IMG/VR virus record: IMGVR_UViG_3300011987_000007
Span: 1-37,970 of that record
Strand: one strand, 5' to 3'
DNA length: 37,970 nt
DNA from: a virus
Both the position numbers and the translations under genes were made by a program. The notes under the pieces were generated by a model. It saw only the letters and a list, made by a program, of their open reading frames with translations. It was not told where the DNA came from and made no database searches. Shown piece by piece: positions 6,198-37,970 of the stretch (positions within the stretch are counted from its first letter, which is position 1; the number at the start of each line of letters is the position of its first letter).

Positions 6198-6405
6198 CTA
6201 GGTAACGGTTGACTAGTACCTAGCGGAAGCAATTAGAAGCGAGCGTGTCCGGGCTCCCGCGTGTCGCCGTTCGTTAGCTTCCGTTCACGGTGCCACAATG
6301 GTGGGGCATCAAGGGTTCGAATCCCTTGCCCTCCGCCGCTCCGGTGCAGGTCAGAGGCCCTATAGCGCACATGATCGACTGTAAGGTAACGGAACCAGGT
6401 AACAG
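6198..6405. other. attP: Probable attP region with core and arm-type repeats
   Basis: Three elements support this. A tRNA-like core lies at 6289-6337. Direct repeats of AGGTAAC(G/A)G occur at 6200-6208 on the left and at 6384-6392 and 6397-6405 on the right, all in the same orientation, like arm-type integrase sites. The integrase gene follows immediately. A palindrome CTAGGTA-N12-TACCTAG (6198-6204/6217-6223) overlaps the left arm and could bind a regulator or Xis. There is no convincing gene in 6180-6430; a TTGACT at 6209-6214 is a weak candidate -35 for the integrase. Confidence 0.75.
6289..6337 (+). other. 3' fragment of a class II tRNA (tRNA-Ser type), attP core
   Basis: The fragment folds as the 3' half of a tRNA: variable arm GGTGCC/GGCATC (6289-6294 with 6305-6310), T-stem AAGGG/CCCTT with loop TTCGAAT (6311-6327), acceptor 3' strand GCCCTCC (6328-6334), then G, C, C. 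A long variable arm plus discriminator G points to serine. There is no anticodon arm or 5' half, so it is not a functional tRNA. Integration would restore the 3' end of the host tRNA gene. Confidence 0.8.
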
Positions 6406-6430
6406 CCAGCAGAAGCAGGGGGGACCCAAG

Positions 6431-7564
6431 GTGGCATCATCCCAGTCACGACTCCGCGCCAACGGGACCATTGCACACCGTGTCGTCTACAGGTCCAAGG
6501 GCAGGCAGCGGGTCGAGACGTTCGACACGAAGAGCAACGCCGAGGCGTTCCTGAAGTCGATCAAGACCAGCGGACTGGCCGACGCGCTCGAGCTACTCGC
6601 CGCGAAGGACGCCTCCGCGATCGAGGTGATGACCGTCGCCGACTGGATCGACCACCACATCAACCTGCTGCCCAACGTCACCAACGGCACGCGCTCGGTC
6701 TACCACTCGTACAACGCCCGCGACATCCGCCCGAACCTCATCGGCAAGATGCCCGTCGACCAACTCAACCGCCGCACCGTCGAAGCGTGGGTGCTCTACC
6801 TCCACCGGGAGCGGCACCTGTCCGGCAAGTCGATCAAGAACCGGCAGGCGATCCTCTCCGCGGCGATGACCCGCGCCGTCCGCGACGACATCCGGGAATC
6901 CAACCCGGCTGAGGGCGTGCGCCCGCCAACGACACCGAAGCTCGCGAAGGTGTACCTGTCCGCATCCGAGTTCGCAGCACTGCGCGACGAGATCCCGTTC
7001 TACTACCGCCCGCTGATCGGCGTCCTGTACGGCACCGGAATGCGCTGGTCCGAGGCGACCGCCGTGCACGTCAGTGACGTTGACCTCGCGAGCGACCCGC
7101 CCACGATTCACGTCGGCTGGTCGTGGAAGCACCACCACGGCGGCAAGCCAGCCCTCGGCCCACCGAAGTCTGAGGCCGGCGACCGCACGATCTCGCTCCC
7201 GCCGCAGCTCGTCACGATGCTCGCCCGACTGGTCGACGGTCGCCAGCCCGACGACTTCGTGTTCGTCAACCACCAGGGTCACCCGGTTCGGGCGAACACC
7301 TTCCAGCGCATCTGGGCCGGCGCCGTGTCACGCTCCGAGAAGATCACCCGCAAGCACCCCAGAATCCACGATCTACGCCATTCCCACGCAAGCGCTCTGA
7401 TCAAGCTGGGCGTACCGCTGAACATCGTCCAGCGTCGGCTCGGGCACGAGAAGATCTCGACGACGCTCGACACGTACGGGCACCTGGCCGAGGACAGCCT
7501 GTCCGTCGCCGCACAGGCCGCCGCGATCTCACTGACGGACGCGTTCCCAGAGCTGGAGCCCTAG
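6431..7564 (+). CDS. int: Tyrosine integrase
   Basis: 377 residues from GTG 6431, chosen for the AGGGGGGA ribosome site 6 bases upstream; the longer frame (ATG 6371, or back to 6290) would run through attP. The N-terminal 60 residues resemble an AP2/arm-binding type domain, about 65-160 the SAM-like core-binding domain, and about 175-370 the catalytic domain. Catalytic residues visible are Arg205 (GMRWSEA), His313 and Arg316 (HDLRHSH), His339 (RLGHEKI) and the nucleophile Tyr349 (LDTYGHL). It would recombine attP with a host tRNA-Ser gene. The C-terminal coding end overlaps the leftward gene 7529-7720 by 36 bases. Confidence 0.93.
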   Translation: MASSQSRLRANGTIAHRVVYRSKGRQRVETFDTKSNAEAFLKSIKTSGLADALELLAAKDASAIEVMTVADWIDHHINLLPNVTNGTRSVYHSYNARDIRPNLIGKMPVDQLNRRTVEAWVLYLHRERHLSGKSIKNRQAILSAAMTRAVRDDIRESNPAEGVRPPTTPKLAKVYLSASEFAALRDEIPFYYRPLIGVLYGTGMRWSEATAVHVSDVDLASDPPTIHVGWSWKHHHGGKPALGPPKSEAGDRTISLPPQLVTMLARLVDGRQPDDFVFVNHQGHPVRANTFQRIWAGAVSRSEKITRKHPRIHDLRHSHASALIKLGVPLNIVQRRLGHEKISTTLDTYGHLAEDSLSVAAQAAAISLTDAFPELEP

Positions 7565-17367: not shown

Positions 17368-17861
17368 AAGCCATGAATGACCCACAAATCTCACGGGACG
17401 ATGCGCAGATCATCGCCAGGTGGGTTCACCAGATTCGCCCCACGTGGGACTTGCCCGGCATCCTCGCTGCACTCTCGAAGCGCGGCGACGCCCAACCAGC
17501 ACGCCTCGCCCTCGCCGCGCTCGCAGCAGCAGCGACCGCCAGCAACCGCAGCCCGGCTGTGATCGCGATGGACGGCAATCACTGGCGCATCGGCCACGCC
17601 ATCGAATCCGAGGCCGACCGTCACCCGTCGAACGAGGACGTGAGGACGTTGTGCGTCGAGTGCTACAAGCCGCAACGCGTCCATCCGTGGATCGGCTGCC
17701 CCGGCTACGTCGCCAAGCCCCAGCCGGCCGAGAACATGTACGACCTCCTCGACGCTGCCCGTGTCGAGGCTGCACGTGGCGGGCAGGCCCGTACCGACGC
17801 CGAGCACGCCACCGCCGCAGCGAAAGCCGGCGACCCCACCCTGGAAGGAACACCCGCATGA
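17364..17861 (+). CDS. Hypothetical protein, replication-associated by position
   Basis: 165 residues from GTG 17364 (GTGA overlap); ATG 17373 is an alternative. N-terminal residues are helical (DDAQIIARWVHQIRPTWDL PGILAALSKR), resembling the small helical proteins following actinophage replication genes. A CVEC pair and CPGY near residues 95-112 may bind zinc. The C-terminus is Ala-rich. Function unknown. Confidence 0.55.
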   Translation: MKAMNDPQISRDDAQIIARWVHQIRPTWDLPGILAALSKRGDAQPARLALAALAAAATASNRSPAVIAMDGNHWRIGHAIESEADRHPSNEDVRTLCVECYKPQRVHPWIGCPGYVAKPQPAENMYDLLDAARVEAARGGQARTDAEHATAAAKAGDPTLEGTPA

Positions 17862-18151
17862 ACGTGACCCTGACCAACGCGGCCGACGTCGACGAGTTCC
17901 ACGACTTCACGGAGACAGGCGGCGACGCGGCCGTCCTTGACCGCTACGGCTACGTCTGGGTCGTGACCGAGGACGACAGGGGCGACCTGTACGGCTACCA
18001 CGTCGAGGACACCGAGATCTCCTGGCAACAGATGCACAACCTCGTCGACCTCCTCGGCCCGCTCACCGTGATCCACGACCCCCGGGGTCATCGCATGACG
18101 GCCTCGCCGCAGGACCCGCGCCCGACACTGCCGAAGGGAAGCACCCCGTGA
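17858..18151 (+). CDS. Small acidic hypothetical protein
   Basis: 97 residues, ATGA overlap upstream and GTGA overlap with the hydrolase downstream. Very acidic, with beta-strand pattern (AVLDRYGYVWVVTEDDRGD LYGYHVE). No family recognised. Tight coupling to the HslV-like gene makes it a candidate partner or regulator. Confidence 0.55.
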   Translation: MNVTLTNAADVDEFHDFTETGGDAAVLDRYGYVWVVTEDDRGDLYGYHVEDTEISWQQMHNLVDLLGPLTVIHDPRGHRMTASPQDPRPTLPKGSTP

Positions 18152-18690
18152 CCACCGTCGTCGCCGTCGCCCACGGTCGCGACGTGTGGATGGCCGCCGA
18201 CACCATGACCAACATCTACGACCGGCCCGTCTACACCGCCCGGAAGATCCGGCGTGTCAGCACACCCTCAGGGGATCTCCTCCTCGGCTTCTCCGGAGAC
18301 GGCGCGCTCGCGGACATGATCCAATACCGCGTCGGATACCCCGCGCTCACCGACAAGGGATTCGACGTGTGGGCGACCGACATAGCGATCGCCATCAGCA
18401 AGCAGGGTGTCACCGAAGGCATCGTCGCCGACGGTCGGCTCGACGGGAACCTCATTCTCGGCGTCGGTGGTGGCCTCTGGACCCTGGTCCACATGCAAGC
18501 CGTCGCACACGACGACGGAATGGCCGCGATCGGAACCGGCGAAGGCCCGGCGATCGGCGCCCTCGAGACCCTGCTTCGGCTCGGAGAGAAACCCCAGTTC
18601 GCAGTCCAGCAAGCCTGCGCGGTCGGTATCTCCCGCGATCGGTACTCCGGCGGGGACGTCCAGGTAGAGCACCTCGAGGGGAACCGATGA
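18148..18690 (+). CDS. HslV / proteasome-beta-like N-terminal Thr hydrolase
   Basis: 180 residues from GTG 18148. The start MTTVVAV matches E. coli HslV (MTTIVSV): removal of Met would expose a Thr nucleophile. Counting from that Thr, Asp17 (WMAADTM) sits exactly where HslV has Asp17, and Lys32 in ARKIRRV aligns with Lys33 in KKVRRL. The glycine-rich GFSGDGALAD corresponds to GFAGGTADA, and AAIGTGEGPAIGALETLL to the AIGSGG ... ARALL helix. Length matches HslV (about 175). No HslU/ATPase partner is present. It could be a peptidase acting on a phage or host protein, or a non-proteolytic Ntn hydrolase. The fold and active site are inferred from sequence alone. It lies in the early operon between an acidic protein and a zinc/HTH protein. 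Confidence 0.8.
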   Translation: MTTVVAVAHGRDVWMAADTMTNIYDRPVYTARKIRRVSTPSGDLLLGFSGDGALADMIQYRVGYPALTDKGFDVWATDIAIAISKQGVTEGIVADGRLDGNLILGVGGGLWTLVHMQAVAHDDGMAAIGTGEGPAIGALETLLRLGEKPQFAVQQACAVGISRDRYSGGDVQVEHLEGNR

Positions 18691-19547
18691 GCGACGCGAC
18701 CTGCATCTGTGGCCAGCCAGCACCGGACGGCTACATCTGCCCGGCCTGCCGGACCCGGCTCGGCAACAACCTCGAACGACTCCCGCGTCTGTGGGACGAG
18801 CTCAGCGTGAAACTCGCCGGCCTCCGCGGCGTCGACTACGCAGCCATGGGCGAGGGTGGCAGCAGCAGCGAAACACCGATGGCGATCAACGAAGCCGCCT
18901 ACAACCTGCGCATAGCCATCCTCGCCAGCATCCGACAAGCCGCCGACTCCCTCGCCCTCGACATCTCCGAAGTCCAGACCCTCGTCGCGTACTCCACCCC
19001 GGAACCGAGCTTCGGGTTCCTTTGTCGACTCCTCCGACAGTTCGTCAACCACCTAGCCAACACCGAATGGGGCGCACGGTTCGCAGTCAACCTCGACACC
19101 AAGATCGACGAGATCGTCCGCAAGATCGACAGTCCACCCGCCCGGATCTACGCCGGCCGGTGCAGCTTCATCGGCGTCATCGGACCCGACGGGACACCCG
19201 GCGACCCCGACCCCGACTGGCTGCCATGCTTCACCGATATGTGGGTGCTTGAGGACGACCGGCGCCTCGCGACCACCGTGCGATGCCCGTGCTGCGGTGC
19301 CACATTCAGCCTCGCGAGCCGCCGTGAGTGGGTGCTCCAGCAGTACGCCGGCTACCTCGTCACACCCACCGAAGGCGCCGCGCTCATGGGCATCCCGAAG
19401 GACACGATCAAGAAGTGGGCCACCCGCAAGCGCGTACTACCGCGGTCCGCCGACGGCACATACTCCACCGACGCGAGCGAGCGCCGGCTGTACCTGCTCG
19501 ACGACCTCATGGAGTTGGCACGCCCGAAGCGTGACGACGCAGCGTGA
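18687..19547 (+). CDS. Zinc-finger plus HTH DNA-binding protein
   Basis: 286 residues from ATG 18687, chosen because it overlaps the upstream stop; the frame is open further upstream but within the hydrolase gene. N-terminal CICG ... CPAC (about 5-24) is a zinc ribbon; the middle is helical; a second Cys pair lies at CPCCGATFSLA (about 202-212); the C-terminal 60 residues carry a helix-turn-helix (PTEGAALMGIPKDTIKKWA) followed by basic residues. It closes the early operon and is a good candidate for an activator of the late genes, by position only. Confidence 0.75.
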   Translation: MSDATCICGQPAPDGYICPACRTRLGNNLERLPRLWDELSVKLAGLRGVDYAAMGEGGSSSETPMAINEAAYNLRIAILASIRQAADSLALDISEVQTLVAYSTPEPSFGFLCRLLRQFVNHLANTEWGARFAVNLDTKIDEIVRKIDSPPARIYAGRCSFIGVIGPDGTPGDPDPDWLPCFTDMWVLEDDRRLATTVRCPCCGATFSLASRREWVLQQYAGYLVTPTEGAALMGIPKDTIKKWATRKRVLPRSADGTYSTDASERRLYLLDDLMELARPKRDDAA

Positions 19548-20202: not shown

Positions 20203-20544
20203 ATGGCGTGGGATCAGAAGCGACGCACGCCAGCCGACTACATCGACCGACACAAGGCAGCACGCATCCTTGTCGCACACGACGGCATCTGCCACCTATG
20301 CGGACACGGGCAAGCAGAGCAGGTCGACCACGTCATCGGCTGGGCAGAGTGGACACACCCAACGCTCTCAGTGCACGACGCGAGCAACCTCGCCCCCGCA
20401 CACGGCACGCCCTGCCCCACCTGTGGACGTGACTGCCACGCCGACAAGAGCAAGGCAGAAGCCGCACGCGGCAGAGCAGCCGGCCACGCCAAACGAGCGG
20501 CCCGAGGTAAGCGACCCATCGAGAAGCACCCCGGCGCCCTCTGA
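20203..20544 (+). CDS. HNH endonuclease next to terminase
   Basis: 113 residues from ATG 20203 with GAGGTGA upstream. The HNH/zinc fold is visible: CHLCGHG (about 30-36), VDHVIGW with the catalytic His (about 43-49), ASNLAPAH with Asn and His (about 62-69), and CPTCGRDCHADKSK. A terminase-adjacent HNH protein is typical of HK97-like phages that cut cos ends, where it helps the terminase complex. C-terminal tail is basic. Confidence 0.85.
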   Translation: MAWDQKRRTPADYIDRHKAARILVAHDGICHLCGHGQAEQVDHVIGWAEWTHPTLSVHDASNLAPAHGTPCPTCGRDCHADKSKAEAARGRAAGHAKRAARGKRPIEKHPGAL

Positions 20545-20734
20545 TATATCACCGGACGCATAGGGGTGGGGGAGGGTCCCCTAACCTAAGGGGTCCAGGG
20601 CGATGCTGGTTAGCAGGCCGGATCCTGCGTGCGCCGCGCTCCCGTTTTTTCGGCAGCCCGTACCCGCGTGCTGACTTAGCCGCGTCTGCACGATCGTGCC
20701 CTGGTGGTACGCACCGACCCTGGAGGTCATCGTC
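20545..20734. other. HNH-terS intergenic region, candidate cos/packaging region
   Basis: 190 bases without a convincing gene. The G-rich GGGGTGGGGGAGGG followed by TCCCC at about 20564-20582 and CCCCT/AGGGG symmetry around 20578-20593 recall cos regions found between HNH and terS in HK97-type phages. A perfect palindrome GCACGATCGTGC lies at 20688-20699, and a T6 run at 20645-20650. A GGAGG ribosome site for terS is at 20722-20726. Cleavage sites cannot be determined from sequence alone. Confidence 0.35.
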
Positions 20735-21091
20735 ATGGCTGCACCGAAGGCACCGGTTGGTCTGGGCAAGGCGGGTAGGGCTCAGTGGTCGTCGATCGCT
20801 GGCGCCTACAAGCTGCGCCCGGATGAGTTCTCGGTCCTTGAGGACGTCTGCCGGACGACTGACATGCTCACCGCGTTGACTGAGGCGTGGGTCGAGGATG
20901 GTTCCCCGATGACGACTTCGGGCAGCATGGGTCAACTCGTGATTCACCCGCTCATTCCTGAGATCGACAAGCACCGCAAGTCTCGGGCTGGGTTCTTCCG
21001 GCAACTGCACCTGCCTGATGGTGACGAGGTGCCGGCGGCGAACCAGCACCGCAGCGCGGCGGTCGCCAAGTGGTCTGCGCGTGGCGCGTAG
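20735..21091 (+). CDS. terS: Terminase small subunit
   Basis: 118 residues from ATG 20735, chosen for GGAGG 8 bases upstream over an in-frame start at 20696. Starts with APKAPVGLGKAGRAQW, and SSIAGAYKLRPDEFSVLEDVC then MGQLVIHPLIPEIDKHR matches the P27-type small subunit. It binds the packaging site and loads the large subunit. The downstream gene begins 11 bases before its stop. Confidence 0.82.
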   Translation: MAAPKAPVGLGKAGRAQWSSIAGAYKLRPDEFSVLEDVCRTTDMLTALTEAWVEDGSPMTTSGSMGQLVIHPLIPEIDKHRKSRAGFFRQLHLPDGDEVPAANQHRSAAVAKWSARGA

Positions 21092-22904
21092 CCTCGCTGC
21101 CTCCCAGACCCGCACCGCTGACTCTGACTACCGCGAGATCATCGGCTGGTACGGAGACCAGCTAGAGCGCGCGACACCGCCCGTGGGCCTCGCGTGGGAG
21201 CCGGTCAAGATCGGCCCGACGTGGCGGTACGAGAACGGCTGGGTTCTGCCGGCGGTGACGCTGGGGTGGCGCAACCTGGCGTGGGCTGGGCTGAACCTGT
21301 CGGCGCCCAAGGGTGGGCCGTGGACGTACACGCTTGAGCAGGCCCGGTTCATCCTGTGGGCTGACGCGCTCGACCCGGAGACGGGCGAGTTCCTGTACTC
21401 AACGTCGGTGCTCCAGCGCCTCAAGGGTTGGGGCAAGGACCCGGTCGGTGCGTGCGTGTCGGCCACGGACATCTGCTCTGAGGATGCCGTGTTCGACCAC
21501 TGGCGCGGAGACGTCCCTGTCGGTCGGCAGCAGGAGAACGCGTGGGTTCAGATCATCGCCACGGCGCAGCAGCAGACGCAGACGACGATGAAGTTCTTTC
21601 CCGGCCTCATACCTGCCGAGACGCGCAAGAAGTACGGCATCCAGATCGGCAAGCTGAACGTGTGGGCCCGGGGTGACACGGCGCAGATCGAGGCTGTGAC
21701 GTCGAACCCGCTGACGATTGAGGGCGGGCGTCCGACGCGGATCATCCGCGTGGAGACGCAGAACTGGAACACCTCGAACGGCGGTCACCTGATGGCCGGC
21801 GCGATCGAGGGTAACGCTGCGAAGAGCCCTGCTGGTGCGGCGCGGATCCTCGACATCTGCAACGCGTATCGGCCCGGCGAGGACAGCGTCGGGCAGAAGG
21901 CGCGCGAGGCGTTCGAGGCGACGCAGGGCACCCGCTGTGAGGTTCATGCGGCCTCGACGGACTGGCCTGAGTGCATCAACTGCCAGCGGCCCAAGTCGGC
22001 GGACTTCGGCCAGCTCTACGACTCGCTCGAGGCCCCACCCGAGGCGCCTCTGACTGTGGATGCTGCTCCTGGCGTGGTGGAGTCCATTCGGGGCGACTCG
22101 ATCTGGCTGTCCACGAAGCGGATCATCTCGTCCATCCTGAACCCGATGAACTCGCCGAGCGAGTCGCGGCGCAAGTGGTACAACCAGATCACGGCGCAAG
22201 AAGACGCCTGGTGCGACCCGAAAGACGTCGCGCTCGCAGCTCGGGACGAGTTGATCGAGCCCGGCACACCCGTCGTCCTGTTCGGTGACGGCTCCAAGTC
22301 CGACGACGCCACCGGCCTACTGGCTATCCGCATCAGCGACGGTCACGCCCAGGTGTTGCATGTCCAGCAGCCCAAGGCTGGGCAGATCGTCGACCGTGAC
22401 GCGCTCGATCATGCGGTGATCGAGGCGATGGCCACCTTCAAGGTTGTGGCGTTCTGGTTCGACCCGTCCCACGCGAAGGATGACGACGCTGAGGGCGATA
22501 ACCGTTTCTGGTGGCCGCTGTGTGACGAGTGGTCGAAGCGGTACGGCAAGCGGTTGAAGTGCTGGCCGGTCAAGTCCGGTAACCGTACTCATGCGGTCGC
22601 GTTCGACATGGCACTGGAGATCAACCAAGCGGTCTTTGTGCCGGCGTGCGAGCAGGTTCTAAACGAGCTCGAGGCGGGCGCGGTCACCTTCGCCAAGTCG
22701 GCGTGGCTGATCGAGCACATGGGCAACGCCAAGCGGGCGCCGGGCAAGTACGGCATCTCGATCCGTAAGGACAACCGCGAATCGCGTCACAAGATCGACC
22801 TCGCCGTCTGTCTGGTCGGTGGCCGGATGCTTCGCCGGATCTACCTGCTCAGCATCAAGAAAGGCACGCCCGGCAAGGGTCGGGTGATCCTCCTAGGCGA
22901 CTAA
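21081..22904 (+). CDS. terL: Terminase large subunit
   Basis: 607 residues from GTG 21081, inside the end of terS. N-terminal ATPase: the GWGKDPVG segment (about residues 115-122) is the Walker A-like motif of this actinophage TerL family. C-terminal nuclease: acidic residues in LFGDGSKSDDATG, VVAFWFDPSH and KIDLAVCLVG follow the RNase H-like order. It pumps DNA into the prohead and cuts it. The stretch about 250-330 contains CEVHAASTDWPECINC, a Cys pair set that may be structural. Confidence 0.93.
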   Translation: MARSLAASQTRTADSDYREIIGWYGDQLERATPPVGLAWEPVKIGPTWRYENGWVLPAVTLGWRNLAWAGLNLSAPKGGPWTYTLEQARFILWADALDPETGEFLYSTSVLQRLKGWGKDPVGACVSATDICSEDAVFDHWRGDVPVGRQQENAWVQIIATAQQQTQTTMKFFPGLIPAETRKKYGIQIGKLNVWARGDTAQIEAVTSNPLTIEGGRPTRIIRVETQNWNTSNGGHLMAGAIEGNAAKSPAGAARILDICNAYRPGEDSVGQKAREAFEATQGTRCEVHAASTDWPECINCQRPKSADFGQLYDSLEAPPEAPLTVDAAPGVVESIRGDSIWLSTKRIISSILNPMNSPSESRRKWYNQITAQEDAWCDPKDVALAARDELIEPGTPVVLFGDGSKSDDATGLLAIRISDGHAQVLHVQQPKAGQIVDRDALDHAVIEAMATFKVVAFWFDPSHAKDDDAEGDNRFWWPLCDEWSKRYGKRLKCWPVKSGNRTHAVAFDMALEINQAVFVPACEQVLNELEAGAVTFAKSAWLIEHMGNAKRAPGKYGISIRKDNRESRHKIDLAVCLVGGRMLRRIYLLSIKKGTPGKGRVILLGD

Positions 22905-22921: not shown

Positions 22922-24451
22922 ATGGTCGGGTTCACCGATTGGGTTCCGTCAACGTTCGCCCCGACCAGTATTCCAACCCTGCCGCTCTTGGGTTTGTCTG
23001 AGGATGAGCGTCAGTTGATCGCGAGGCTGCAGATGCGGCAGCAGCATGACCGCAACAACATGCAGTTGTGCAAGTCGTATTTCAAGGGTGCGCAGATCAT
23101 CGACAACCTCAAGATGGCCGTGCCGGATGACATCGCCAAGGCTCTACGCACGCTGGTGGGCTGGCCTCGTCTCGCAGTGAACCCGTATGTGGAGCGTCTC
23201 GCTCGTGACGGGTTCCGCCTTCCTGGCGAGACTGACATCAATCAGGATCTGGAGGACGTCTGGGTCGACAACGGGTTGGCCGCTGAGCAGAAGTTGGCGT
23301 TCAAGGACGCCTTGACGATGGGCCGCGGCTACTGGCTGATCGGATCGCCTGATGAGCCGGGCGGGTCACCGAAGATCACTGTTGAGTCGCCGCTGAACAT
23401 GGGTGTGCTGTGGGATCTGACCGGCACTCGCGCGAAGTCGGCCATCCAGTCGTACATGGTCGACAACCAGCGCCACTCTGTGGTTCTGGTTCCGGGCAAG
23501 ACGCTAGAGGTCGCACAGGACGAGAACTTTGTGTGGCAGTTGGTGAATCGTGACGAGCACGGTTTCGATTTCGTGCCGGTCGTGCGGATGGCGAATGACC
23601 CTGAGACGGACAACCGTGACGGGAACTCTGCGATCACACCGGAACTCATGTCCACAGTGGACGCGGCGTGCCGCACCCTGCTCGGGCTTGAGGTCGCCCG
23701 CGAGCTGTACTCGGCCCCGCGCATCGCGATCCTCGGCGCCTCGGTGGACGACTTCCAGAACGCGGACGGGACGAAGCGCTCCTCGTGGGACACGTACATT
23801 CACAAACTGCTTGGGCTCGAGCGCGATGGTGACGGCAACCTCCCCGAGATCCACCAACTGCAGACCTACGACCCCTCGGTGTTCACGAAGCTGATCGAGA
23901 TGTACGGCTCTCAGGCCGCTGGCATCACAGCTGCGCAACCGCAGGAGTTGGGTCTGTACACGCAGGGCAACCCGATCAGCGCTGACGCCTATGACGGTGC
24001 GGACTTGACGCGGAACCGTCGCGCCGAGCTGATGCAGGACTACTTCGCTACGCCGATGATTCGCGTGATGCAGATGGCGATGCGCTTCCAGAACGGCGGC
24101 AACCTGCCCGAGCAGTTCCGTCGCATTGAGGTCGACTGGCGTTCGGTGCATCACGTGTCGCTGGCTCAGGCCGCGGACCCGATCAGCAAGATGATCGCCG
24201 CCGGGTCGTTCCCCGCCACTTCCGACGTGACACTCAAACTGGCCGGCGTCACGGCCGTGCAACGCCAGCAGATGGAGCAGGACCGCCAGTTGGACAAGGG
24301 CCAGTCGGAGCTCCAGCAGATCGCGTCGAGCATGGAGCTGCGGGCGATGAAGGCAGAGAAGGTGGTTACCGCCGACGCGCAGAGTCTCGCCGTGCCGACG
24401 CAGAACCTGATGCCGAAGCAGGTTCCAAGTGTCGCAGCAAACGGCGGCTGA
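22922..24451 (+). CDS. Portal protein
   Basis: 509 residues from ATG 22922 with GGAAGGGGGG upstream. The order TerL, this protein, MuF-like, scaffold, capsid is diagnostic, and the N-terminal pattern (DRNNMQLCKSYFKGAQIID, LVGWPRLAVNPYVERLARDGF) is that of SPP1/HK97-type portals in actinophages. It forms the dodecameric gate at one vertex, docking terminase and later the connectors. The C-terminal 60 residues are Gln/Met-rich and helical. Overlaps the MuF-like start by 23 bases. Confidence 0.93.
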   Translation: MVGFTDWVPSTFAPTSIPTLPLLGLSEDERQLIARLQMRQQHDRNNMQLCKSYFKGAQIIDNLKMAVPDDIAKALRTLVGWPRLAVNPYVERLARDGFRLPGETDINQDLEDVWVDNGLAAEQKLAFKDALTMGRGYWLIGSPDEPGGSPKITVESPLNMGVLWDLTGTRAKSAIQSYMVDNQRHSVVLVPGKTLEVAQDENFVWQLVNRDEHGFDFVPVVRMANDPETDNRDGNSAITPELMSTVDAACRTLLGLEVARELYSAPRIAILGASVDDFQNADGTKRSSWDTYIHKLLGLERDGDGNLPEIHQLQTYDPSVFTKLIEMYGSQAAGITAAQPQELGLYTQGNPISADAYDGADLTRNRRAELMQDYFATPMIRVMQMAMRFQNGGNLPEQFRRIEVDWRSVHHVSLAQAADPISKMIAAGSFPATSDVTLKLAGVTAVQRQQMEQDRQLDKGQSELQQIASSMELRAMKAEKVVTADAQSLAVPTQNLMPKQVPSVAANGG

Positions 24452-25193
24452 ACACCAGGCGGGTCAGGCCGCTCTCGTCTCACTGATCCCGGCGCTGCTG
24501 CGTCAGGCGTGGCCGTTGCTGGACCTGCACAACCTGCAGGCCACGATGCCTCGGTTCACGGCGGTGGTTCGGGCCATCGTCCAGCGGTACGGACGCGCGT
24601 CGGCCGCCGGCGCGCTGGCCTACTACCAGCGGGAGCGTCGGGCCGCGTCGGTGCCCGGCAGGCCCGTGTCGAAACTGGCTCCTGCGCTTGCGGATTCGGT
24701 GATCGAGTCGGCCGTGTCGTGGGCGACGACGGACCTGTACGGCCCGGTGACACCGCAGGCCACGGAGGCTGCGATGCGGCAACTCGACGGGGCCGTGCAG
24801 AACATGGTCCTCGATCAGGGCCGGGACACGATCATCGGCGCCGTTCAGCAGGACAAGTACGCGAAGGGCTGGGCGCGTGTCACGTCGCCGGGCGCTTGTT
24901 CGTTCTGCGTCATGCTCGCGCTGCGGGCGGGCGCCGGGTTCCTGTATAGGTCGAAGCAGTCCGCTGATTTCAGGGCTCACACGCCCAATGCGAACGGTAG
25001 CGGCGGGCTCTGCCAGTGCCACGCGGAGCCGGTCTTCAACGCCTACGAGCCGAGCGCGCACATGCGCGACATGCAGCAACTGTGGGCTGACTCCACAAAG
25101 GGCCGCTCAGGAAACGACGCGCGCAACGCCTTCCGTCAGGCCGTCGAAGGTCGCCCGGTGACGGGCAAGACCGGCCCCCTCAAGAAGGGTTGA
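24429..25193 (+). CDS. MuF-like minor capsid protein
   Basis: 254 residues from GTG 24429, within the end of portal. N-terminal 150 residues are helical; residues about 155-200 hold GACSFCVMLALRAGAGF and GGLCQCHAEPVF, the C-C ... C-x-C-H pattern of the MuF domain. Homologues are packaged inside the head and have often been annotated as capsid maturation protease. No separate prohead protease gene is seen, so processing, if any, would have to rely on this protein or not occur. Confidence 0.8.
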   Translation: MSQQTAAEHQAGQAALVSLIPALLRQAWPLLDLHNLQATMPRFTAVVRAIVQRYGRASAAGALAYYQRERRAASVPGRPVSKLAPALADSVIESAVSWATTDLYGPVTPQATEAAMRQLDGAVQNMVLDQGRDTIIGAVQQDKYAKGWARVTSPGACSFCVMLALRAGAGFLYRSKQSADFRAHTPNANGSGGLCQCHAEPVFNAYEPSAHMRDMQQLWADSTKGRSGNDARNAFRQAVEGRPVTGKTGPLKKG

Positions 25194-25513: not shown

Positions 25514-26206
25514 ATGTCTGAACAGCCAACCCCCGTCACGCCTGAGGCCCCCGCATCGCCTGCGGGCGTGACCGACGATCAGGCGTCCGCGCTACTGGCG
25601 GACGCCGTCGCGGCAGCAGAACGCGATGAGAGCGCTCTTGATGAGCACTCGCAGAAGGTTGTCGCGGCAATCCGAAACGACTTCAAGGCAGAACGGGCGA
25701 AGCGACAGGCCGCTGAGACCGCACTCAGCACATCGGCTGAGGCCGCACGGGCCGAACTCACCGCGTCCATCGCCAAGGCTCTCGGTCTGAACAAGGACGA
25801 GACGCCCGACCCGGTCAAGCTCACCGAGCAGTTGACCACGCAAACGGCAGAAGCAAGGCAGGCGCGAGTTGAACTCGCCGTCTATCGGGCAGCCGGCAGT
25901 ATCGCGGACCCGTCCGCGCTGCTTGATTCAACGAGCTTCCTGGCGTCGCTCAAGGACATCGACCCCACCGACTCCGCGGCTGTCACGGCTGCGATCACGT
26001 CGGCCGTCGCGTCGAACCCGCGGCTTGGCGCCGCACCCGGCACACCGCGTCCTCCTGCCCCGAACCCCGCACAGGGGTCGAGTGCCAGCGGATCCGGCGC
26101 GCCGGACTTCAAAAAGCAGATCGCTGACGCCATGAAGGCGGGCGACATCGGACTCAGCATCGCGCTCGAAGAGCAGCGCGCGGCGAGTCTCAAAACCAAG
26201 TCCTAG
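25514..26206 (+). CDS. Scaffolding protein
   Basis: 230 residues from ATG 25514 with TGGAGGA upstream. Acidic and Ala-rich, with long helices (about 20-130), a Pro/Gly/Ser-rich linker (about 170-195) and a short basic/helical C-terminus that usually contacts the capsid. It directly precedes the major capsid gene, as scaffolds do. It guides prohead assembly and is then lost. Confidence 0.82.
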   Translation: MSEQPTPVTPEAPASPAGVTDDQASALLADAVAAAERDESALDEHSQKVVAAIRNDFKAERAKRQAAETALSTSAEAARAELTASIAKALGLNKDETPDPVKLTEQLTTQTAEARQARVELAVYRAAGSIADPSALLDSTSFLASLKDIDPTDSAAVTAAITSAVASNPRLGAAPGTPRPPAPNPAQGSSASGSGAPDFKKQIADAMKAGDIGLSIALEEQRAASLKTKS

Positions 26207-30491: not shown

Positions 30492-33400
30492 GTGGCCGAG
30501 ACCAATGCGGGCGCGATCATCGGGACGCTTCGCCTCAATATCCGCGACTTCGAGGATGGCATCGCTAAGGCGATGGCTCTAGCGGACAAGCTCGACGGCA
30601 AGAACGTCGACGTCCAGGTCAAGGTCGACACGGCCGGCGCTGAGACGAAACTCGCTGCCGTCGCTGCGTCTGAGGACAAGGTTGACGCGGGCAATAAGCG
30701 GGTGGCGTCGTCCAGTCAGCAGGCGGGCAAGGGCATGGGCGGGCTGGCGATGGCCATCATCGGCCTCGGTCCGGCGATTGTCCCCCTGGCCGCGGCCACC
30801 ACCGGCCTGGCTGTGGGCTTCGGTGCGATGGGCGCCGCTGGTGTCCTGGCCATCGTCGGCATCGCCAAGGAGATGAAAGCCGGGACGCCGCTGGGCGGGG
30901 CGTACACGACGATGCTGGACACCCTCGAGGGTGACCTCACCAAGCTCAGCCACACCGCTGCCGATGGCGTCCTGGCACCGTTCCAGAAGGAAGTCGCCAC
31001 CCTTCAAGGCCAGATGCCCGCACTGAACGGCATCATCGGCGAGTTCTCGGTCATCACAGGCAAGACCGCTGGGTTGCTGGTCTCTGGGCTCGTGGCGGCG
31101 TTCATCGCCCTTGAACCTCTCGCGCGTGACGCGGGCGTGTACGTCCTAGATCTGTCCCAACGCTTCGCGGCGCTCATGTCCGGGCCTGGTGTCGTGTCGT
31201 TCGGTGACTATGTGCGCTCGGTGTTCCCTCAGGTCATGCAGGCTGTCGAGTCCATCGTCGGTGCCGCCTTGCACCTCGTGGCCGCACTGGCGCCGCTCGG
31301 TCTTGGCACGTTGGGGATTCTGCGGACCTTCACGGACCTGATCAACGCCATCCCCGTGGATGTTCTCGCGGTCCTGGCTCAGGGTGCGGTGTCGGTCTAC
31401 CTCGGATTTAAGACGTTTTCCTTGCTCAGTGGCGGGATCACTGCCGTCGGTGCTGCGCTGCAGGGTGTGGGTGTCTCTGCTGAGACTGCGGCTGTCGGTA
31501 TGCGTGCCCTGAACATCGCCGCCGGTGCCATCGGCATTCTCATTACTGCGGCGACGCTCATCTTCTCCGCGAACGCTGAGGCGACCCGGCAGAACACGCA
31601 GGCCGCCAACGACTACGCCGACGCGCTGCGGGCATCCAACGGTGTCATCGACCAGTCCATCCGTCAGATGGCAGTCAAGAAGTTGTCGGACGAAGGGGCG
31701 TTCACAGCGGCCAATCAACTTGGGATCAGCGTGTCTCGCCTCACAGATGCCGCGCTCGGCAACCCGGCCGCCATTGCGGAGATGACCGCTGCCACCAAGC
31801 CATTCGCTGATGCAATTGCCGTGACGACGCACGCCGTAGGTGATAACTCGAAGGAGACCATAGCCAACGGCTTGGCAGCCCAGAAGCTGAGGACTGCATG
31901 GGGCGGACAGAACACCGACCTCAAGAATGGGATCCAAACCTGGAAAAACCAGACCGCCGCTACAAAGTCGAGCACTGGCGCACAGAAGGCCGCGGCTGAC
32001 GCGCAGCAGGCCCTCGCCGCCAAGGTTGGCACAACAGGCGCAGCCCTCGTGCTCGCCACAGCGGCGCAGAAGACGACCGCCGACGCCGCAGCCCAGGCAG
32101 CCGCGAAGATGTACCTCGAGAACGACGCCGCGGGCATCCTCAAGAACGCGCTGGACCGGCTCAACGGCGAGACCATCAACGCCGCCCAGGCCCAGAACTC
32201 GTTCGACTCCTCGCTGGTCAACATGGGTGACCACGTCAACGCCACAGGCAAGAAGATCACCTTCACCACGACCAGCATCGGCAACATGTCCTCAGCGTCC
32301 GTGGCGCTGCGTGGCCAACTCAACGGGCAGGTGACCAACCTGCAGGCCGTGGTCGAGGCCAACGGTGGGCTAGCAGACAGCACCGGCAAGGCGCGCGCGC
32401 AGATGGTCACGATGCGCAAGCAGATCATCGACAACGCCGTCGCCCACGGCGTCAACCGGAAGGCCGTCACCGACTACGTCGACAAGCTGCTGGCCATCCC
32501 GCGCAAGATCCCGCCGACGAAACTCGACGTGGACAAGGCTGCCGCCGACAAGAACATCGCCGACATGCAGAAGCGGATCACCGCCATCAAGCAGGGTAAG
32601 GCCCCTGGGCTCCATGCCGACTCGACGGCAGGTAAGGCGACGATCGCTGCCCTACAGCTGGGTATCGACCGCATCAAGCAGGGCAAGGCTCCGGGCGTCA
32701 CGGCCAACATCACGCCCGGGCAAGCGCGGATCGTGTTGTACCAGAAGCAGATCGATGCGATAAAGCAGAAGCTGGCCACCGGGCTGGACGCCAACCCTCG
32801 GGCCGCGCGGCTCGCCATCACTGCCCTGCAGGCGAAGATCGACGCCATCAAGCAGGGCAAGCCTCCGGGACTGGACGCCAACAGCACCGCGGGCAACAGG
32901 AAGCTCACGGAATTCCAGGACCACATCACCGGCATCAAGCAGCGCACGCCCCCTGGGTTGACCGTCGCCACTGCTGCGGGCATCCGGAAAATCGGCGACT
33001 TGCAGGCGACGATCGACCGGCTGAACGGCAAAACCGTTGGCGTCGTGATCCAGTACAGCGCCAACGGGGTGAGGCTCACCTCGCCCTCAAGCCTGCACCA
33101 CGGGACGGGGGCGCCCAAGGCTGCTGGTGGTCCGATCGACGGACCTGGCACCGGGACGTCCGACTCGGTGCCCATCATGGCGTCCAAGGGCGAGCACATG
33201 CTGACCGCCGGCGACGTCAACGCCGCTGGCGGTCACGGTGCTGTCATGGCGTGGCGCAAGTCGCTGCACGGCTACGCCGGTGGCGGGCCGATCGTCATTA
33301 CGATGCCGACCGGGGCCGCAGTGCGCGCAGCGTTCAACACGGGCGCCGCCAATGGCGCTACGCAGTTCCCGGCACCGTCGCTCGGTGGTGGCGGTGGCGC

Positions 33401-34004
33401 CGGTGGTGCCGGTCGGTGGGCGTCGATGGCGTTGCAGGTGTTGATGATGCTCGGGCAGCCGGCGAGCTCGCTCGCCGGGAACCTTCGCCGAATCAACTTC
33501 GAGAGCGGCGGCAACCCGAACGCCATCAACCTGACAGACAGCAACGCCAAGGCGGGGCACCCGTCCATAGGGTTGATGCAGACGATCCTCGGCACGTTCA
33601 ACGCTTACGCGGGCCCATTCCGCAGCCGTGGCCAACGCGACCCGTTCGCCGACATCTACGCCGGGGACAACTACGCGATCCACCGGTACGGCTCTGTCGC
33701 GGCAGTCGACCCGCTGCGTATGCACAGCGGGTACGACATGGGCGGCGTGATGATGCCGGGCGGTGTGGGGAAGAACTACGGGACCAAGGCCGAGCGGGTC
33801 CTGTCCGGGTCTCAGACGGACTGGTTCGAGGCGGGCCGGGCTGCCGCCGGCAAAAGCGGAAGCGACGTCGACATGTCCGGGGTGCGTGCCGACCTGGCCG
33901 AGCAGACCGGCGTGATCCGTGGCCTCGTCGCCGGGTTCGGCGTCGAACTCAACCGCCAGGCCCGGACGATCCAGACGATGCAGCGACAGATGGCGAGTGC
34001 CTGA
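30492..34004 (+). CDS. Tape measure protein with lytic transglycosylase domain
   Basis: 1170 residues from GTG 30492, two bases after the chaperone stop. The N-terminal 60 residues and long helical stretches, with hydrophobic segments at about 75-125 and 255-370, are typical. About residues 685-850 hold tandem repeats (units of about 30-35 residues with IKQGKAPG or variants, see findings). Residues about 975-1090 form a lysozyme-like SLT domain: RRINFESGGNPNAIN with catalytic Glu1004 and HPSIGLMQTI. The length predicts a tail of about 170-180 nm if the usual 1.5 Angstrom per residue holds. The lytic domain would open the cell wall during DNA entry. Confidence 0.93.
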   Translation: MAETNAGAIIGTLRLNIRDFEDGIAKAMALADKLDGKNVDVQVKVDTAGAETKLAAVAASEDKVDAGNKRVASSSQQAGKGMGGLAMAIIGLGPAIVPLAAATTGLAVGFGAMGAAGVLAIVGIAKEMKAGTPLGGAYTTMLDTLEGDLTKLSHTAADGVLAPFQKEVATLQGQMPALNGIIGEFSVITGKTAGLLVSGLVAAFIALEPLARDAGVYVLDLSQRFAALMSGPGVVSFGDYVRSVFPQVMQAVESIVGAALHLVAALAPLGLGTLGILRTFTDLINAIPVDVLAVLAQGAVSVYLGFKTFSLLSGGITAVGAALQGVGVSAETAAVGMRALNIAAGAIGILITAATLIFSANAEATRQNTQAANDYADALRASNGVIDQSIRQMAVKKLSDEGAFTAANQLGISVSRLTDAALGNPAAIAEMTAATKPFADAIAVTTHAVGDNSKETIANGLAAQKLRTAWGGQNTDLKNGIQTWKNQTAATKSSTGAQKAAADAQQALAAKVGTTGAALVLATAAQKTTADAAAQAAAKMYLENDAAGILKNALDRLNGETINAAQAQNSFDSSLVNMGDHVNATGKKITFTTTSIGNMSSASVALRGQLNGQVTNLQAVVEANGGLADSTGKARAQMVTMRKQIIDNAVAHGVNRKAVTDYVDKLLAIPRKIPPTKLDVDKAAADKNIADMQKRITAIKQGKAPGLHADSTAGKATIAALQLGIDRIKQGKAPGVTANITPGQARIVLYQKQIDAIKQKLATGLDANPRAARLAITALQAKIDAIKQGKPPGLDANSTAGNRKLTEFQDHITGIKQRTPPGLTVATAAGIRKIGDLQATIDRLNGKTVGVVIQYSANGVRLTSPSSLHHGTGAPKAAGGPIDGPGTGTSDSVPIMASKGEHMLTAGDVNAAGGHGAVMAWRKSLHGYAGGGPIVITMPTGAAVRAAFNTGAANGATQFPAPSLGGGGGAGGAGRWASMALQVLMMLGQPASSLAGNLRRINFESGGNPNAINLTDSNAKAGHPSIGLMQTILGTFNAYAGPFRSRGQRDPFADIYAGDNYAIHRYGSVAAVDPLRMHSGYDMGGVMMPGGVGKNYGTKAERVLSGSQTDWFEAGRAAAGKSGSDVDMSGVRADLAEQTGVIRGLVAGFGVELNRQARTIQTMQRQMASA

Positions 34005-36618: not shown

Positions 36619-37970
36619 GTGAGCCTGCCAGCGGAAGTGCTCTTCGGGACGGTCATAGGCTCACACTTCGCGGCTGTGGTCGATGGTTCGGATACGGGCA
36701 CCGACCCGGATTCTGTGGCTCTGACGGGGCAGGTGACGTTCACCCCCGACTTGGTGGACGGGACAGGTCGGTGGAATGGTCGGCTGCTGATCACGACCTC
36801 CACCCCGCCGGTGATGTTGACGGTTCAGCCGGTCCCGGTCGAGCTGACCGCGGGCGCGTACTCGGTGAGCCTGATCGCCACCGACATAGCTGACGCGCTG
36901 CCAACGGCCTTCACGTGGACGGCCAGCTTCAACCTGTCCGCGAACGGTGCACCGGTGAGCATTCCCCCGGTCACGTTCGTGCTGCCCTCCGGGACGACCG
37001 TCGACGTGACACTGGTGGCACCGGTGTCGACCTCGGACGGCTGGGAGGCGTACGTCTCTGTTGCCGCGTCCGCTGCTGCCGCTGCCGCCTCCGCTGCGTC
37101 CGCTGCCGCGTCGGCTGCGTCTGCCGCTATGGCCGGCGGCACGATGGGCAAGAACCTGTTCGACCAGTCCGCTGCGTCCGGCCCGAACCTGTTCTGGAAC
37201 GGCGCCGCGGACACGCCCGTCACCCTCTCCGGCTACTACGCCTCCGCCAAGATCCCCGTCGTTGTCGGCACCGCCTACACGATCAACAACGCCCGCGACA
37301 TCGCCTTCTTCAAAGCTGACGGCACCCACACCGCCACCTCGGCATACGTCAACAACACGACGTCGGCGCCCTACACGTTCACGCCATCCGGGCTCGATGC
37401 GTTCATCGGCTACAACGTCACGACGGCGAACCTTCCGTTGTCACAGATGGAGGTCGGATCGTCGGTCACCAGTTATGAGCCGTACGGCGTGTACGTCCCG
37501 CACCTCCTCGTCAGCGGCGCGTATGCGACGGACACGCTCGCAGCGATCGAAACGTCTGCGGCCTCCGCCCGCCGTGCCGGTGGGGTGACGGTCTACAAGA
37601 CCGGCAACGACATGCTCGTCCGGTCGGCGTTCGACGGGACCCGTGACATTGTCATGCCGGTCGCGCTCGCCGGGCAGCTCGCTGCTGGCGGTGAGGTCAT
37701 GGTGATCCTGCGCCTGGACACCGCCCCGTCATATGTGTCGCTGGTGCCATCTGCTGCTGCCGACGCCTCGGTCTGGCCCGCCATCGCGAGCACCGTGGCG
37801 TCGACCGCGATCCACGGCCCATCCGACGACAACTGCCCGATCAACGTCGGGTGGACCTACATCGGCGCGAACCACGGATACAACGGTGGCTCGACCGTCA
37901 CCATGACCGCGCACGGGAAGACGGCCGCGGACCGTGGGTCGCAGTGGAGCGACGGCACCCGCACCTACAC
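36619..37970 (+). CDS. Tail fibre, N-terminal part (3' partial, continues at base 1)
   Basis: Open from GTG 36619 to the right edge (450 complete codons), no stop. Residues 1-140 are beta-rich (LTAGAYSVSLIATDIADALPTAF). Residues about 150-180 are an Ala/Ser low-complexity stretch like those linking fibre segments. Residues about 182-300 form a carbohydrate-binding-like beta-sandwich (NLFDQSAASGPNLFWNG ... QMEVGSSVTSYEPYG is a pattern shared by many phage tail proteins). Residues after 325 duplicate the start of the window (see repeats). With bases 1-2046 it gives about 1005 residues. It likely makes the first contact with the host surface. Confidence 0.82.
   Translation, partial: MSLPAEVLFGTVIGSHFAAVVDGSDTGTDPDSVALTGQVTFTPDLVDGTGRWNGRLLITTSTPPVMLTVQPVPVELTAGAYSVSLIATDIADALPTAFTWTASFNLSANGAPVSIPPVTFVLPSGTTVDVTLVAPVSTSDGWEAYVSVAASAAAAAASAASAAASAASAAMAGGTMGKNLFDQSAASGPNLFWNGAADTPVTLSGYYASAKIPVVVGTAYTINNARDIAFFKADGTHTATSAYVNNTTSAPYTFTPSGLDAFIGYNVTTANLPLSQMEVGSSVTSYEPYGVYVPHLLVSGAYATDTLAAIETSAASARRAGGVTVYKTGNDMLVRSAFDGTRDIVMPVALAGQLAAGGEVMVILRLDTAPSYVSLVPSAAADASVWPAIASTVASTAIHGPSDDNCPINVGWTYIGANHGYNGGSTVTMTAHGKTAADRGSQWSDGTRTY
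37591..37970. repeat. Right copy of the near-repeat shared with the left end
   Basis: This is the counterpart of 1-380 with the same reading frame. The two copies differ at about 46 positions by eye, mainly in the segment of bases 37710-37830, and the final 83 bases are identical. See the left copy for the interpretation. Confidence 0.85.

Follow-up and report, generated by a model that had tools for sequence, protein, structure and literature searches.

A distantly branching HslV/proteasome-beta-like threonine hydrolase gene in a predicted actinobacteriophage contig

The locus and its viral genome

The gene under study lies in a virus contig of IMG/VR that is 37,970 bases long and classed as linear; this whole contig is called the window from here on. 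An earlier note on this DNA had proposed an HslV/proteasome-like reading frame at positions 18148 to 18690, and our analysis confirmed it there. The gene, its neighbours and the other features of the record needed below are the following:

6290-7564: integrase
17858..18151, plus strand: upstream acidic protein, 97 aa (from its translation; function unassigned, one weak PHROG match)
18148..18690, plus strand: HslV/proteasome-beta-like N-terminal threonine hydrolase, 180 aa, GTG start
18687..19547, plus strand: downstream Cys-rich and MerR/HTH-like protein (phrog_908, E 1.8e-27; MerR-like phrog_2474, E 6.5e-4; Gordonia phage HTH proteins)
20203..20544, plus strand: HNH endonuclease (phrog_333, E 5.5e-8)
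20696..21091, plus strand: terminase small subunit, TerS (phrog_1496, E 1.1e-14)
21018..22904, plus strand: terminase large subunit, TerL (phrog_9, E 7.5e-47; frame open from 21018, true start possibly later)
22922..24451, plus strand: portal protein (phrog_104, E 1.2e-100; PF05133)
24429..25193, plus strand: VG15/MuF-like head protein (PF25310, E 2.5e-37; phrog_193 'head maturation protease'; CxxC...H...CxC motif)
25514-26206: scaffold-like gene

The GC content by codon position in the peptidase frame is 0.70/0.47/0.83, a coding-like pattern in a record with 66% GC. The gene shares the bases GTGA (18148-18151) with the gene of its acidic neighbour, as had been noted before, and ATGA (18687-18690) with the downstream gene, and it is translationally coupled to both neighbours in the window. 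The further suggestion of a three-gene unit did not hold: nothing next to the homologues in related phages matches either neighbour, and a conserved three-gene module was therefore rejected.

The record also carries genes for an endolysin, an exonuclease, RecT, a replication initiator, a methyltransferase, an SU10-type capsid protein and tail proteins. Its terminase is closest to those of phages of Microbacterium, Bifidobacterium, Mycobacterium and Streptomyces, and its TerL is 54% identical to that of Microbacterium phage Footloose. Based on this gene content, which includes the integrase and an actinophage-like terminase, we classify the virus from its sequence as a temperate actinobacteriophage. 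The PHROG name 'head maturation protease' for 24429-25193 may mislead, given the PF25310 (VG15) match and the MuF-like Cys/His motif. The ends of the record, 1-300 and 37591-37890, are 85% identical over 300 bases and the gene order is also circle-like, as if the contig formed a circle with one end varied, or the start of a tail gene were duplicated. A 71-base repeat occurs three times at positions 32556-32887, with 66-76% identity to the reference copy, within a 1170-aa frame (30492-34004) that is probably the tape measure gene.

Homology, predicted fold and catalytic residues

The profile search matched residues 2-177 of the protein to PHROG 1040, 'peptidase HslV family', with an E-value of 1.1e-13. 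As a single sequence, the protein scored weakly against Pfam PF00227 (E 8e-4, under the gathering score) and matched HslV structures at E about 0.005, while a profile of its close relatives matched HslV chains in the PDB at E about 1e-5. The hhalign comparisons gave E-values of 1.5e-9 to HslV, 8.6e-12 to the Moorella/Geobacillus/Ochrobactrum phage type and 5.8e-14 to the Vibrio/T5-like phage type.

The AlphaFold2 model, built from a 71-sequence alignment of the collected homologue loci, reached a pLDDT of 94.6 and a pTM of 0.90, and contains the beta core and all four flanking helices (53-61, 72-90, 132-144 and 149-162). In the Foldseek search against the PDB, the top match was HslV 1m4y (E 2.2e-12), followed by matches to BPH, with TM-scores up to 0.81, and to 20S beta subunits, at a probability of 1.00. 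The structure matches in BFVD were phage proteins, mostly uncharacterised, one of them from Gordonia phage Daredevil. The core and helices that define the proteasome-like (Ntn) fold family are thus found both in the AlphaFold2 model and in the Foldseek matches. The Pfam score below the gathering cut-off is the one result that could speak for a chance resemblance or a spurious frame, an explanation of negligible probability that the PHROG match (E 1e-13), relatives 44-51% identical, the high-confidence fold and the PDB matches already refute.

The residues expected of this family are listed below, numbered so that the Thr after the initiator is residue 1. The counts refer to 57 aligned homologues, except for Thr1 (n=56), where the N-terminally truncated L114 was omitted.

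18151..18153, plus strand: codon of Thr1, the predicted nucleophile, which immediately follows the GTG initiator (Thr in 54/56 and Ser in 2/56 homologues)
18199..18201, plus strand: Asp17-equivalent codon (Asp in 56/57)
18244..18246, plus strand: Lys32 codon, aligned with Lys33 of HslV and the proteasome (Lys in 51/57)
18286..18288, plus strand: oxyanion-hole Gly codon in the GFSG loop (Gly in 49/57)
18526..18540, plus strand: AIGTG motif, from the alignments (T at the serine position of HslV AIGSG)

The offset between Lys32 and HslV Lys33 corresponds to a loop that is one residue shorter in the window protein, and the oxyanion-hole position is the one named Gly47 in PMC8665760. The exceptions at the Lys and Gly positions are mostly short divergent proteins whose alignment is uncertain. 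The set formed by Thr1, Asp17, Lys33 and the oxyanion Gly is therefore present in the sequence and kept across homologues, the close relatives among them. The earlier note had named Thr1, Asp17, Lys32 as the counterpart of HslV Lys33, the glycine loop and AIGxG, and the alignments contain every one of them; the structure prediction that it offered as a check returned the Ntn fold, and the second check, the Thr/Asp/Lys triad in homologues, likewise came out in its favour. The initiator is directly followed by Thr in the window protein and in L001 and L110, from which we predict that Thr1 is exposed after Met removal. Taken with residue conservation, the modelled fold suggests the catalytic geometry of the predicted Thr1/Asp17/Lys centre.

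A serine replaces threonine as the predicted nucleophile (MSVVVAV...) in an HslV-like subfamily that comprises L025, L026, L128 and L129, from ruminant Clostridia MAGs, and in one genome of this subfamily a second HslV-like match lies about 1 kb away.

Close relatives and phylogenetic placement

Three close relatives were found, all in uncultivated viral contigs. The window protein is 44% identical to L001/L115, 51% to L110/L113 and 45% to L114, whose N-terminus is cut by the contig end; in the comparison of the loci the values were 38% for L115 and 46-49% for L113 and L114. Both relatives with a complete N-terminus share the GTG/Thr/Thr start with the window. A pattern search requiring an ATG start matched nothing, because the relatives start with GTG, and a looser start pattern recovered L110. 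The packaging proteins of these phages are less alike, with identities to the window of about 25% for TerL (L113 and L115) and 26-29% for the portal (L113 and L114). The contig of the closest relative, L110/L113, is the 121-kb IMGVR_UViG_2929701070, whose TerL and portal are very unlike those of the window; within the 20 kb compared, no other gene is as well conserved between the two as the one for the HslV-like protein. The search for phage relatives of the window at the DNA level returned none, and the plasmid search gave no match. Among the genome contigs searched with the window protein there was no relative either, so that no host can be named from a prophage.

In the trees, the window protein and its three relatives form one clade on a long stem, with support of 99/99 and 100/100. 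This clade lies outside HslV, which forms its own clade (100/100), and outside the bacterial/phage MTCIVGLV-type, the Vibrio/T5-like type and the short MTTIA-type; the deeper branching order among the HslV-like groups has moderate support only. The scores against the HslV equivalogs, 22.6 bits for NF003964 (cut-off 137 bits) and 20.3 bits for TIGR03692 (cut-off 157.75), fall far short. Because of these failed scores and the separate clade, HslV proper was rejected: the HslV/proteasome fold proposed earlier stands, and the identification with HslV itself gives way to a separate lineage. By sequence, we consider the protein a new, distantly branching member of a known family, outside every phage group sampled.

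Proteasome-like peptidases encoded by phages, PPH and AAH, were described by Fuchs, Alva and Lupas in 2021 (PMC8665760), an HslV without HslU was noted in a Salmonella jumbo phage (PMC7823757), and a proteasome-like gene is listed for Alteromonas phage V22 (PMC7289586). Our searches of a phage collection matched 193 records with one query, 183 with another and 494 with a third, this last set including Microbacterium and Arthrobacter phages with genes annotated as 'protease'. The earlier note was thus right that the hydrolase is phage-encoded and overlooked that it belongs to a described and widespread class, of which the window protein is a new divergent member. Hundreds of cultured phages carry such peptidases; we came across no publication that had tested what they do, nor any measurement of activity or oligomeric state in a phage member. 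In Aeromonas phage 2L372X, L007 (114931-115482) and the adjoining gene across the origin are both annotated 'peptidase HslV family' and may represent a two-subunit arrangement.

Genomic context

In the window and its close relatives, the peptidase gene is followed within about 3.3 kb by TerL (the window, L113 and L115) or by the portal gene (L114); among these phages the immediate neighbours are not conserved, and the packaging module is. In L115, TerL lies 0.9 kb downstream of the peptidase gene, and in L113 an HNH gene, TerL and the portal gene are near it. Similar positions were seen in unrelated small phages. TerL lies 1.7 kb downstream of the homologue in Microbacterium phage LeeroyJenkins, and Arthrobacter phage Hum25 has a closely window-like order that crosses the genome ends (HTH, protease, HNH, TerS, TerL, portal). 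The homologue lies between TerL and the portal gene in Salmonella phage SeSz-2, near the portal gene in Klebsiella phage VLCpiS13d, directly after a portal-like gene, read by eye, in ct2KA10, between head-completion and head-closure genes in Vibrio phage 1.147.O, and near capsid/head genes in Vibrio phages L1 and K59.

There are exceptions. In Jerseyvirus/Kagunavirus the homologue is nearer the lysis genes, with the terminase about 3.5-4 kb away; in the Jedunavirus IME346 it is near tail genes; and in large phages it stands among ThyX, PhoH, RNR or RNase H genes. Among the large neighbours with a name in 58 other IMG/VR loci, TerL and portal came up most often, each at about 10% only, a frequency that is suggestive and not clearly above a rough chance estimate; a general enrichment near terminase or portal is therefore unproven. 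The terminase-distance survey with PF03237 found a match in 9 of 50 viral records, too few to use. The apparent head-module pattern was noticed post hoc, and PMC8665760 reports no suggestive genomic context for phage homologues. The recurring terminase, portal or head position in unrelated small phages nevertheless makes a role in particle assembly an idea that can be put to the test, also in those relatives with short genomes that can be grown on E. coli.

Proposed function

Our preferred reading, with a probability of roughly 0.45, is that the gene encodes an ATP-independent threonine peptidase that would act late in the phage cycle and support particle assembly or proteostasis. The host methionine aminopeptidase would remove the Met and expose Thr1, which together with Asp17 and Lys32/33 would form a proteasome-type catalytic centre, as the residues and the predicted fold suggest. 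By analogy with HslV and BPH, the protein would probably self-assemble into a ring, whose chamber may admit unfolded or short substrates without an ATPase of its own, an idea that draws on the ATP-independent hydrolysis suggested by BPH. At a late stage it might, more tentatively, trim or clear phage assembly or host proteins during particle production. A late use appears the most likely one because the gene stands where the packaging/head module starts, a position with parallels in several unrelated small phages. Conservation also speaks for the preferred reading: the peptidase is 46-49% identical to those of L113 and L114 and 38% to that of L115, against about 25% for TerL and 26-29% for the portal. 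We regard a more specific form of this idea as unlikely, namely that in small tailed phages the peptidase is part of the packaging/head module, as an unfoldase-free ring that would process or clear portal, scaffold or minor head proteins, replacing the canonical prohead protease or working beside it.

The absence of an unfoldase from the genome, stated in the earlier note, agrees with our searches: PF07724 and PF00004 were negative for AAA+ unfoldases across the 37,970-base record, which may be incomplete, and none appeared in the contigs of the relatives, which may be fragments. A host HslU is also unlikely for an actinobacterial host, because HslV is not recorded in Actinobacteria (Table 1 of PMC8665760).

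The strongest competing explanation, somewhat less plausible than the preferred one, is a general peptidase for proteostasis or host takeover that would work alone or with a host AAA+ protein (e.g. Mpa/ARC or Clp ATPases) and remove damaged proteins, defence proteins or regulators of the host. On this view the gene would stand beside the terminase only because actinophage genomes have a hot spot for cargo near their packaging end. The company of ThyX, PhoH, RNR and RNase H genes in large phages agrees with it, as do the many small accessory genes left of the terminase in actinophages and the ATP-independent roles and housekeeping partners discussed in PMC8665760. Against it speaks that unrelated small phages repeatedly have the gene in the TerL-portal-head interval, and no host partner is known.

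We consider it improbable that the protein takes the place of a canonical prohead protease in the maturation of capsid or scaffold. The repeated linkage to head genes would fit, searches of the record for an S78 prohead protease or a ClpP-like protease were negative, and the gene with the PHROG name 'head maturation protease' carries the MuF-like Cys/His motif instead; but this negative covers S78 and ClpP-like proteases only, so that other prohead protease families are possible. The record also has its own scaffold-like gene (25514-26206), and phages of the SPP1/P22 type, which use a scaffold, do without a protease.

Very improbable, in our estimation, is a protein that keeps the fold as a specific ligase or amidase of the connectase kind, or as a non-catalytic ring. 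Connectase, a ligase built on a proteasome-like fold, illustrates that such a change can occur (PMC8665760). In the window protein, however, the triad is intact, and its predicted secondary structure lacks the two-helix insertion between S3 and S4 that marks connectases.

Comparison with known systems

The window protein shares with HslV (ClpQ) the fold, the N-terminal TT[IV]V, Asp17, Lys33 and AIG[S/T]G, and differs in its far lower equivalog scores, its separate clade and the lack of an HslU match in the record. To the BPH structures (5ovs, 5ovt and 5ovu) it has the highest listed TM-scores, 0.79-0.81, with 13-18% identity, a likeness that refers to the overall fold.

PPH and AAH resemble it as Group I-like compact phage proteasome homologues with Thr1/Asp17/Lys33 and no AAA+ partner. 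However, PPH is described as a protein of about 140 aa in which helix H2 is missing (PMC8665760), a description that the window protein, with 180 aa and four helices, does not fit. The MTCIVGLV...SAGV-type proteins are probably AAH, an assignment made here; the window protein lies outside their clade (hhalign E 8.6e-12). AAH was not found in actinobacterial phages (PMC8665760). By its sequence, the window protein is probably an actinophage member of a lineage other than the proteins taken as AAH.

The members of PHROG 1040, from T5-like, 121Q-like, Vibrio, Aeromonas, Moorella and Geobacillus phages, have in common with it the profile family (E 1.1e-13), the fold, the catalytic residues and the phage origin. 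Their identity to the window protein is about 16-25%, its clade (100/100) lies outside them, and it lacks their SFRMGQLL and C-terminal FSxGV motifs.

The actinophage 'protease' genes (gp16 of Microbacterium phage LeeroyJenkins and gp135 of Pumpernickel, gp81 of Arthrobacter phage Hum25 and gp77 of Pitbull) are very distant from it in sequence and belong to other tree branches. They also encode HslV-like Ntn proteins, and those of LeeroyJenkins and Hum25 lie near the terminase, as in the window. With the window protein, the proteasome-like class also reaches small temperate actinophages, where it forms a lineage of its own.
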